This document shows positions 8,758-31,472 of a DNA stretch of 32,758 nt, piece after piece. Each line of letters opens with the position of its first letter. Position 1 is the stretch's first letter. The position numbers and the translations under genes were made by a program. The stretch comes from Thiomicrorhabdus sp. (GTDB lineage: Bacteria > Pseudomonadota > Gammaproteobacteria > Thiomicrospirales > Thiomicrospiraceae). The DNA is taken from contig JAMOLY010000160.1 in assembly GCA_027068835.1 (NCBI GenBank), positions 1-32,758 on the forward strand, given 5' to 3'. Under the pieces are notes generated by a model, which was not told the DNA's origin, made no database searches, and saw only the letters and a list, made by a program, of their open reading frames with translations.

Positions 8758-8954
8758 TAGGCTTTACAAGTTAATATAAGATTAATTTTCTCTTTTTTAA
8801 ACTGCTCTTCATCATTTTTTCTAAATTCCCCGAGTACGCTATAAAATCGTGCATTTTTATATCTCGATTTGACGTTTATATTTTCTCATTAACCTACCTG
8901 ATACTGATAAAATGGCGTGTTCAAATAAAATTTTTGGTCAAAAGGACCCTTTTC

Positions 8955-9821
8955 ATGTCAGATGCTATGATTATCAACATCACCCTTAATAATGTTCAAG
9001 AGATGGTTATCCAAAACTCAAAACGTCTCCCCGTACTTATCCATTTTTGGTCGCCCGTTAATGAAGCCAGCCAACAAGCGAATGCTCGGTTAGAAACCTT
9101 GGCGCAAGAGATGGCGGGCGAATTTATTTTAGCGAAAGTAAATGTTGATCAACAATCTGACATTGCCGAAAAATTTTCAAACCCCACCCCTCCCTACTAT
9201 AAACTGATTAAAGACGCAGACATTGTGACCGAAGCGGGAGGACTGCAAACTGAAGAGGCGTACCGCACCCTGCTTAAAGAACACATTGTGGATGAGCCAT
9301 CTGAAAAGCTGAGAAAAGAAGCCGCTCAAGCGTTTGCCGAAGGAGAGTTTGATTTGGCATTACAACGCTTAAGCGAAGCGGCTCAGGAGAATCCAAATAA
9401 CATTAAAATTCATTTAGATTTGGTGCAACTTTACCTGCATACCGACCAACTTAAAGAAGCCAAAGAGCTGTTTTCTCAACTGCCGAGTGATGCACAAAAA
9501 GAGCCTCATGGACGTTATATCAAAGGCGTTTTGTTTTTTACTGAGCAGATGCAGCAAGCGCCTGAAATCGCTCAAATACAAGCCACATTAGCCGACAACC
9601 CAAAAGAAGGTGCGTCACTCTTTTACCTAAGTACTTACTTAATTTTAAACGGGCAAGTTGAGCCTGCTTTTCAAACCCTATTACAACTGTTTACGGTTGA
9701 TCGAACTTACCAAGGAGACCTTCCTAAACAGACGCTTTTGCAAGCATTTGATATGTTTTCAGCGTCTCAACCAGAGTTAGTGGCTAAATACCGTCGCACC
9801 TTTCAAAGTTTGTTAAACTAA
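8955..9821 (+). CDS. cnoX: Thioredoxin-fold plus TPR protein, CnoX/YbbN-like chaperedoxin homolog
   Basis: Trx-like N-terminus (LIHFWSPVNEASQQANARLETLAQEMAGEFILAKVNVD) and TPR C-terminus ending AKYRRTFQSLLN as in YbbN; active-site cysteines absent. Confidence 0.8.
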   Translation: MSDAMIINITLNNVQEMVIQNSKRLPVLIHFWSPVNEASQQANARLETLAQEMAGEFILAKVNVDQQSDIAEKFSNPTPPYYKLIKDADIVTEAGGLQTEEAYRTLLKEHIVDEPSEKLRKEAAQAFAEGEFDLALQRLSEAAQENPNNIKIHLDLVQLYLHTDQLKEAKELFSQLPSDAQKEPHGRYIKGVLFFTEQMQQAPEIAQIQATLADNPKEGASLFYLSTYLILNGQVEPAFQTLLQLFTVDRTYQGDLPKQTLLQAFDMFSASQPELVAKYRRTFQSLLN

Positions 9822-9852
9822 TAGAAACCTTTGCCCGACTCCCCAAATAGAA

Positions 9853-28440: not shown

Positions 28441-29274
28441 TTACATTAAACACTTCATCACCCTTAACGCATCGACCGTCTCTTTAACATCATGAACTCG
28501 AACAATATCAACCCCCTTCAATGCCGCCAGTACAGCCGCCACAATACTACCATTTGCACGGTCATGCAGCACAGTACTGCTTAATATTTCTGAGATCATT
28601 CGCTTTTTTGACACCCCTGCCAGAATAGGATACTTTAAAGCCGTTAACGAATCCAACCCTTGAAACAAAATTTTATTATGCGCTAACGCCTTACCAAACC
28701 CAAACCCAGGGTCTAAAATAATTTTATCTGTTGCAACACCAGCCCTTTCACAACAACTTGCTCGTGCCAACAAAAAATCTCGAACTTCAGACAGAACATC
28801 ACCATAAGCGGGCGAATCTTGCATCGTTTCAAAAGCACCTTGTTTATGCATTAAACAAACAGAAACCCCTGAATTTACCACAACATCCATCGCACCATCC
28901 GCATACAAAGCATTCACATCGTTAACGATTTTAGCGCCAACAGCAATGGCCTCCTGCATCACCTCAGGCTTATAGGTATCAATCGAAATAACGATATCAA
29001 AACGTGCTGCAATCCACTCAATAACAGGAACAACTCGCTCCAACTCTTCTGATAACGAAACAGGCACAGCACCAGGACGCGTTGACTCACCGCCAACATC
29101 AATAATATCCACACCCCCCGCCTGAAACTTAACCACTTGCGCCTCAACGGCCTCTGGTGTTACAAAGCGCCCACCGTCCGAAAAAGAGTCAGGGGTCACA
29201 TTTAGAATACCCATCACAACAGGCATACCGTCCTGCTGTGATTTACACTCGATAAACTCCTGAATACTAAACAT
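28441..29274 (-). CDS. folP: Dihydropteroate synthase
   Basis: VMGILNVTPDSFSDGGRF; DVGGESTRPGAVPV; DPGFGFGKALAHN. SD AAAGG 6 nt before ATG. Confidence 0.97.
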   Translation of the reverse strand: MFSIQEFIECKSQQDGMPVVMGILNVTPDSFSDGGRFVTPEAVEAQVVKFQAGGVDIIDVGGESTRPGAVPVSLSEELERVVPVIEWIAARFDIVISIDTYKPEVMQEAIAVGAKIVNDVNALYADGAMDVVVNSGVSVCLMHKQGAFETMQDSPAYGDVLSEVRDFLLARASCCERAGVATDKIILDPGFGFGKALAHNKILFQGLDSLTALKYPILAGVSKKRMISEILSSTVLHDRANGSIVAAVLAALKGVDIVRVHDVKETVDALRVMKCLM

Positions 29275-29287
29275 CTACTGCCTTTAC

Positions 29288-29315
29288 AAAAAAAAACCCC
29301 GAATAAACGGGGTTT
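29288..29315 (-). terminator. Intrinsic terminator between ftsH and folP, in the folP leader
   Basis: Minus strand AAACCCCG-TTTATT-CGGGGTTT followed by a T run (9 A on + at 29288-29296); 8-bp GC-rich stem. Confidence 0.88.
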
Positions 29316-29322
29316 ACTTTAT

Positions 29323-29481
29323 GAGGCCTTTGCACGAGAGGAGCGCGAGAGAAGAAAGAAATAAAACTTGACTGATTGAGACGAAAACCACAAGGAATAG
29401 CCAGCTATTCGCAAGGTTTTCAACGAAAATCAGGCATATTTTAGCCTTTTTTATCCGTGCATCCTTTCGTGCAAAGGTCTC
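29323..29481. mobile_element. Non-autonomous MITE-like element (IS5-type ends suspected), 159 bp
   Basis: Inverted ends GAGGCCTTTGCACGAGAGG / complement of CCTTTCGTGCAAAGGTCTC (17/19 identical), flanked on both sides by TTTAT (29318-29322 and 29482-29486); no ORF; internal hairpin. Confidence 0.8.
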
Positions 29482-29501
29482 TTTATATTTAAACCTAAAC
29501 T

Positions 29502-31472
29502 TTAGTGAAGCTTTGGCTCACCTTGCTCTGAAGCAGAGTCACCACTCATATCGTCCGAAACAGCATCATCCAGCACCGCATCTTTTGATGTTTTTTCCGT
29601 ACTCTCTCCAGAAGAAGCGTCAGAATCTTTCCCATCAGACTCCCCCCAATCTTTAGGCTTTCCAGGTGGAAGACCCTCCATAATATTTTTAATTTGAGCC
29701 GCATCAATGGTCTCAAACTCCATTAAGGTATCCGTCATAATCTCTAACTTATCCGCATGCTCAATTAAAATCTCTTGAGCACGCTTATAGTTACGATCAA
29801 TCAATTTTCGCATTTCCGCATCAATTAAACGAGAAATCTCTTCCGATACATTTGCATTTCGAGAGTGCCCCATAAAACCAGCCTTCTCTTCATCCTCATA
29901 CATTAACGGCCCAAGAGCTTCCGACAAGCCCCACTTCGTAACCATGTTGCGTGCAATACTGGTTGCCCGCTCAATATCATTACTGGCTCCCGTGGTAACC
30001 AAATCTGCACCATAAATTTGCTCCTCTGCAATACGACCACCATACAGACTCGACAATTGGCTTTCCAGCTTTTGCTTACTGTAACTGTAAACATCTTCTT
30101 CAGGTAGATACATCGTCACACCTAAAGCACGTCCACGAGGCATAATACTGACTTTATAGACAGGGTCATGCTCAGGCACCAAGTACCCTACAATCGCATG
30201 ACCCGCCTCATGATAAGCCGTCATTCGACGCTCTTTTTCGCTCATGATCATACTCTTGCGCTCAACGCCCATCAGTATTTTATCTTTCGCTTGTTCAAAA
30301 TGCTTTTGAGTCACTAACTTATCATTATTTCTTGCCGCAAACAGCGCCGCTTCGTTCACCAAGTTGGCCAAATCAGCCCCAGAAAAACCAGGCGTTCCAC
30401 GAGCAATATAAGCAGGTTTCACATCCTCTGATAAAGGAACCTTACGCATATGCACTTTTAAAATTTGCTCACGCCCTTTAATATCAGGCAAACCAACCGA
30501 CACTTGGCGATCAAAACGTCCAGGACGCAACAGTGCAGAATCCAATACATCAGCACGGTTTGTTGCGGCAATGACAATCACGCCCTCATTTCCTTCAAAC
30601 CCGTCCATCTCAACTAAAAGCTGATTCAACGTTTGCTCTCGCTCATCATTTCCACCACCGCCCATTCCTGAACCACGACTGCGACCCACCGCATCAATTT
30701 CATCAATAAAAATAATACAAGGCGCATGCGCCTTTGCCTGCTCAAACATATCTCTTACACGAGAGGCACCCACCCCAACAAACATCTCCACAAAATCAGA
30801 ACCCGAGATCGTAAAGAAAGGCACCTTCGCCTCCCCCGCAATCGCCTTCGCCAAAAGGGTTTTACCCGTCCCCGGAGGGCCTACCATTAACACGCCACGA
30901 GGAATATTCCCCCCCAAGCTTTGATACTTTCCAGGGTCTTTTAAAAAATCAACAATTTCACCCACTTCCTGCTTCGCTTCATCCGCGCCCGCAACATCAT
31001 CCAACGTGACCTTAATTTGCTCATCCGTCAACATTTTGGCTTTACTCTTACCAAAAGACATAGGGCCACCCTTGCCGCCCATTCCACCGCCCATCGACTT
31101 CATAAAGAAGATCCAAACACCAATCAATAACAGCATTGGAAACCAAGAAATAAAGATCTGCATTAAAATACTTTGCTTTTCAGGAGGCTTAGCGCTTACC
31201 TTTACTCGATTATCCAGTAAATCACCCATCAATCCTGGATCACCAGGACTATAAGTCGTAAAGGCTTTTCCATCCACATAAACCCCACGGATGGTCGGTC
31301 CTTCAATCGAAACCTGACTGACTTGCCCTTGATGAATTTGATCAATAAAGTCGGAATAATCAACACGACTTGTTGGCGTACTGCCCTGCCCACTAAAGTG
31401 ATTAAACACTGACATCAGCACCATCGCCGCAACTGCCCAAATCAACATATTCTTTAACATATCATTATTCAT
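29502..31472 (-). CDS. ftsH: ATP-dependent zinc metalloprotease FtsH
   Basis: [39 protein letters not shown] region; [31 protein letters not shown]. Confidence 0.98.

Follow-up and report, generated by a model that had tools for sequence, protein, structure and literature searches.

An element in the ftsH-folP spacer

The spacer between two genes of a sulfur-oxidising Thiomicrorhabdus, which from established knowledge of FtsH and FolP we take to be ftsH (open reading frame 29502-31472, minus strand) and folP (open reading frame 28441-29274, minus strand), contains a long imperfect palindrome of 159 bp that folds into a hairpin from end to end. The question raised by this locus is whether the sequence is a mobile element that was inserted there or a structured RNA that belongs to the region. 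The window, i.e., the whole stretch of 32,758 nt that was analysed, has the palindrome at positions 29323-29481 of the plus strand. It is read here, with a probability of about 95% based on sequence comparison, as a MITE, a non-autonomous IS5-type element, in the 3′ region of ftsH. It is short and devoid of a transposase gene, it has terminal inverted repeats and a target duplication of fixed length, and comparison of its copies shows dispersal, common ends, a 5-bp duplication and a preferred target, while in relatives the site is empty. The initial annotation had also read it as a MITE, and the dispersed copies, the 5-bp duplications and the empty sites bear this out.

The left terminal inverted repeat (29323-29342, plus strand) is GAGGCCTTTGCACGAGAGGA, with one change relative to the family's GAGACCTTTGCACGA, and the right one (29462-29481) reads GAGACCTTTGCACGAAAGGA on the minus strand. 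The two ends are 20 nt long and complementary at 18/20 positions (90%). They are bounded by the target-site duplication TTTAT, at 29318-29322 on the left and at 29482-29486 on the right. Thus the length of 159 bp, the near-perfect inverted ends and the TTTAT on both sides are as first annotated, and so is the absence of a reading frame: no ORF of at least 100 aa in the window overlaps the element. The DNA fold has a free energy of -39.7 kcal/mol, against -16.0 +/- 2.9 for shuffled sequences (z = -8.2), and none of 200 shuffles equals it. A promoter within the element was considered and rejected, as no sigma-70-like site was found within it.

The end motif, allowing up to 3 mismatches, is found at 4 sites in the window where 0.5 are expected. 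At 9824-9838, directly after the open reading frame 8934-9821, there is an isolated sequence resembling the end, GAAACCTTTGCCCGA (2 mismatches), with no partner end nearby; it is perhaps a remnant of another MITE copy.

Copies in the genome and in the genus

The initial annotation had proposed a search for dispersed copies. With the 159-bp sequence as query, the same genome yielded about nine additional complete or almost complete copies (77-89% identity) as well as some partial ones, and matches to the family are present in 22/32 Thiomicrorhabdus genomes. The 15-bp end (up to 2 mismatches) has 22 + 21 sites in the own genome, compared with 6 + 2 for a reversed control. Related genomes hold dozens to hundreds of copies of the element, and five of them (G001, G013, G017, G024 and G025) each have at least 32 BLAST matches. 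A scan of one genome per species for paired perfect ends 115-145 bp apart gave mostly Thiomicrorhabdus records. Among plasmids and phages no DNA similar to the element was found, and viral contigs have no end pair at its spacing.

The richest genome is that of Thiomicrorhabdus sp. Milos-T2 (G013), with 269 + 263 end sites and none for the control. In the 2.39 Mb read, about 90% of the genome with the last part of contig 2 excluded, there are 204 paired elements. These fall into size classes of about 40 to 280 bp that share one 15-bp end, and 159 bp is the commonest size. With some 200 paired copies, this genome is suited to work on the rise of such elements and the loss of their mover. No description of a MITE in Thiomicrospira or Thiomicrorhabdus came up in literature searches. 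The elements are a new MITE family in Thiomicrorhabdus, of a class that is already known, that of ISAba23-like IS5-type non-autonomous elements, and copy number, target sites and parent can be described here for a MITE family that has spread through a genus.

Target-site duplication and insertion preference

An exact 5-bp duplication flanks 106 of 166 copies, whereas 2.1 are expected from flank shuffling; duplications of 2 or 3 bp show no excess among the same 166 copies. The corresponding figure for Milos-T2 is 111/204 copies against 2.8, a count for which pairs with a duplication were preferred during picking. The base before the duplication is C or T and the one after it A or G in 88-89% of sites, and the end positions of the duplication are A or T in 93-96%, in Milos-T2 and in the other genomes alike. 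The consensus target, obtained separately in Milos-T2 and in the other genomes, is a pyrimidine, five A/T and a purine (Y-WWWWW-R), its symmetry being given by construction because both strands were pooled in the count. The site in the window, with C before the left and A after the right duplication (C-TTTAT-A), fits this consensus.

All 111 duplication-flanked copies of Milos-T2 lie outside called genes, genes being called by a simple ORF rule. They are distributed over tandem (62), divergent (31) and convergent (18) spacers, roughly according to spacer length. A preference for a particular gene context was rejected on these counts, and the site ahead of the ftsH terminator is thus no special target. 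In five tandem spacers of Milos-T2 the first 2 bp of the element overlap the called gene and seem to complete its stop codon (T+GA).

Secondary structure of the copies

Fold-back was assayed in an alignment of 43 divergent copies with 176 columns. RNAalifold gives 59 pairs; 95.1% of the cells pair, both-sided changes occur at 31 of the 59 pairs, more than in any of 500 shuffles and in all slid versions, and the covariation score is 0.273, compared with 0.134 for shuffled and at most 0.079 for slid alignments, although the shared ancestry of the copies inflates both the cell and the covariation counts. The fold-back appears to be maintained, beyond what is inherited from recent duplication. Covariation over the whole hairpin allows one to ask whether the fold-back of a MITE is a by-product of its birth or is selected.

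A function of the hairpin itself should be considered. The RNA of one strand may be kept foldable by selection, for example for RNase III processing or because insertions into transcribed spacers are thereby made harmless. The spreading element would then be selected for a full-length hairpin RNA of one strand that aids the success or the harmlessness of a DNA transposon. In addition to the both-sided changes and the covariation score, this would be in line with the plus-strand RNA being more stable than the minus-strand RNA in 42/43 copies (-71 vs -57 kcal/mol), and with G.T mispairs outnumbering A.C mispairs by 252 to 122 on the window's plus strand, with the register chosen symmetrically. 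However, mutations confined to a single copy show a weak G.T excess, with 9 to 6 in 73 Milos-T2 copies and 25 to 14 (p = 0.11) for three groups summed. Orientation to the flanking genes in Milos-T2 is unbiased, with 18 copies in the same and 24 in the opposite direction, and the inflation by shared ancestry also weighs against such selection. Among other fold-back families that share the element's ends, strand asymmetry is not consistent, and it was rejected as a general rule. At the locus described here, the transcript has the less stable strand of the element. A function of this kind is considered unlikely and is kept only as a lead.

Probable parent insertion sequence and proposed mechanism

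The ends of the element had been likened to IS5-family termini in the initial annotation, with the suggestion that a larger, transposase-bearing parent exists or existed in this genome. Both points are supported. A search with DDE_Tnp_1 revealed in the own genome a 586-bp remnant with the ends of the element (G000:C157:30295-30880), in which the beginning of an IS5-type transposase is joined in frame to its C-terminal part across an internal deletion. Intact IS copies with the same ends, 1244-1254 bp long and with frames of 337 codons, are present in two other genomes, G015 and G024. The transposase matches the NCBIfam IS5 family model NF033581 with 261.7 bits (cut-off 140), and also Pfam DDE_Tnp_1 and DUF772. 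The best-named relative of this putative parent is ISAba23, and the transposases are 54% identical. The element has the ends of autonomous elements, namely of the ISs in G015, G024 and G060, a genome of the same taxonomic family, and of ISAba23, and also those of the own remnant. In G060 a 5-bp duplication flanks 3/4 IS copies (AATAA, AAGAT and AAGCT). No clean 5-bp duplication is found at the G015 and G024 copies or at the remnant.

The element and the IS have little in common beyond the ends of about 15 bp, thus simple deletion of the IS does not account for the element. The mover is likely an IS5-family transposase of the ISAba23 type, a link that draws on the ends, the duplication length and the co-occurrence in the genus. 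Cut-and-paste mobilisation in trans is the mechanism best supported by these sequence features: a transposase of the ISAba23 type would bind the element's ends of about 15 bp in trans, and would insert the element into AT-rich Y-WWWWW-R targets by a cut staggered by 5 bp. In the own genome's assembly (317 contigs, about 94% complete) no intact matching IS was detected, only the 586-bp deleted remnant. The element is therefore probably immobile there now, unless the assembly has missed the parent.

A transposase other than the ISAba23 type may instead be the mover. Milos-T2 has its high copy number with no ISAba23-type transposase detected in protein searches of the whole genome, and some ISs of this type have no clean duplication, which would agree with another enzyme. 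However, the ISAba23-type ISs match the element in their 15-bp ends and, for G060, in the 5-bp duplication, and the multicopy DDE_Tnp_1 elements read in Milos-T2 were rejected as movers, their ends differing from those of the MITE. Another mover is quite improbable, and the mover of Milos-T2 has been lost or is unseen. Seven candidate long elements between matching ends were also read in that genome; these enclose either ordinary genes of the host or nothing with a long ORF, and were rejected as MITE ends paired by chance. The own genome also has, close to contig ends, two mutually similar fragments of another DDE transposase (L044 1399-1686 and L045, about 1399-1779), unrelated to the MITE ends.

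Empty sites and the ftsH-folP locus

An uninterrupted spacer in relatives, another check that had been proposed, is found. Among the 30 folP loci of the genus, including that of the window, the ftsH-folP spacer is empty in 28 of the 29 relatives. The nearest relative, G024, has a folP gene 84% identical to that of the window, and its spacer has a single target copy, TTTAAGTATGAAGTGAACCCCG, where the minus strand of the window reads TTTAAATATAAA-[element]-ATAAAGTAAACCCCG. The one occupied spacer is that of Milos-T2 (L095 2433-2591). It holds a member of the same MITE family, but in the opposite orientation and with another 5-bp duplication, and thus represents an independent insertion.

The alternative that the segment is a regulatory RNA or leader resident in the ftsH-folP region and kept by common descent would agree with its strong full-length hairpin, with the covariation across copies and with its location in a probably transcribed 3′ region, but it is highly improbable and as to origin is refuted by the empty sites: relatives' spacers, except for the independent insertion in Milos-T2, are without the element, copies are present at many unrelated loci, and an Rfam search of the element gave nothing near threshold. 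A conserved structured RNA of the locus was thus rejected for want of both conservation in synteny and a known family. The initial annotation had named such a resident RNA as the reading to adopt if there were no second copy and no IS with the same ends, and if the segment were syntenic in distant relatives; second copies and such ISs exist, and the segment is not conserved in synteny.

With the element read as an inserted MITE, the ftsH-folP spacer of the window is accounted for. The ftsH stop codon is 15 bp beyond the right duplication, which places the element in the 3′ untranslated region of ftsH. An intrinsic terminator of the host, AAACCCCGTTTATTCGGGGTTT with a T run (29294-29315, minus strand), stands between it and the downstream folP; a similar G+C hairpin with a T run was found by reading at the same place in the spacers of relatives. 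As this terminator separates ftsH from folP and the element is before it, no continuous operon is split, and the annotation of the two genes as a tight housekeeping operon is not supported. The insertion gives the 3′ end of ftsH a long hairpin and disrupts neither the terminator nor folP, and it should be near-neutral at this site. With an element of a known kind and a mover that is probably of a known IS type, the insertion site itself is ordinary.

Comparison with known elements

ISAba12 belongs to the IS5 family. It is the proposed parent of MITEAba12 from Moraxellaceae, another element in another host, which resembles the present case as a MITE with a proposed IS parent (PMC6382973). Closer is ISAba23, an IS5-family element from Acinetobacter with a 5-bp target duplication and a length of 1249 bp (PMC4110982), near the 1244-1254 bp of the parents found here. 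The 5-bp duplication is thus a published trait of this IS5 branch and is not new. The ISAba23 copies end in GARACCTTTGCACGAA, and 2/4 copies read have the 5-bp duplication. The element in the window differs in having no transposase gene, in resembling ISAba23 only at the ends, and in its host.

Ends like those of the present element, GAGACCTTTGCA / GAGACCATTGCA, are also found in the BrickBuilt MITE and ISPg1/ISPg9 of Porphyromonas gingivalis and in ISNme1 of Neisseria, and IS5-family parents have been proposed there too (PMC4596501). BrickBuilt contains tandem repeats of 23 nt and its target duplications vary (PMC4596501), whereas the element in the window is free of such an internal array and its duplication is fixed at 5 bp.

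Other Gammaproteobacteria, namely Zhongshania, Marinomonas and MAGs (L142, L143, L151, L164, L187, L201, L206, L214 and L220), have fold-back elements that share the 15-bp ends but are otherwise unrelated. The long palindromes of these elements are outside the search pattern by which they were found.
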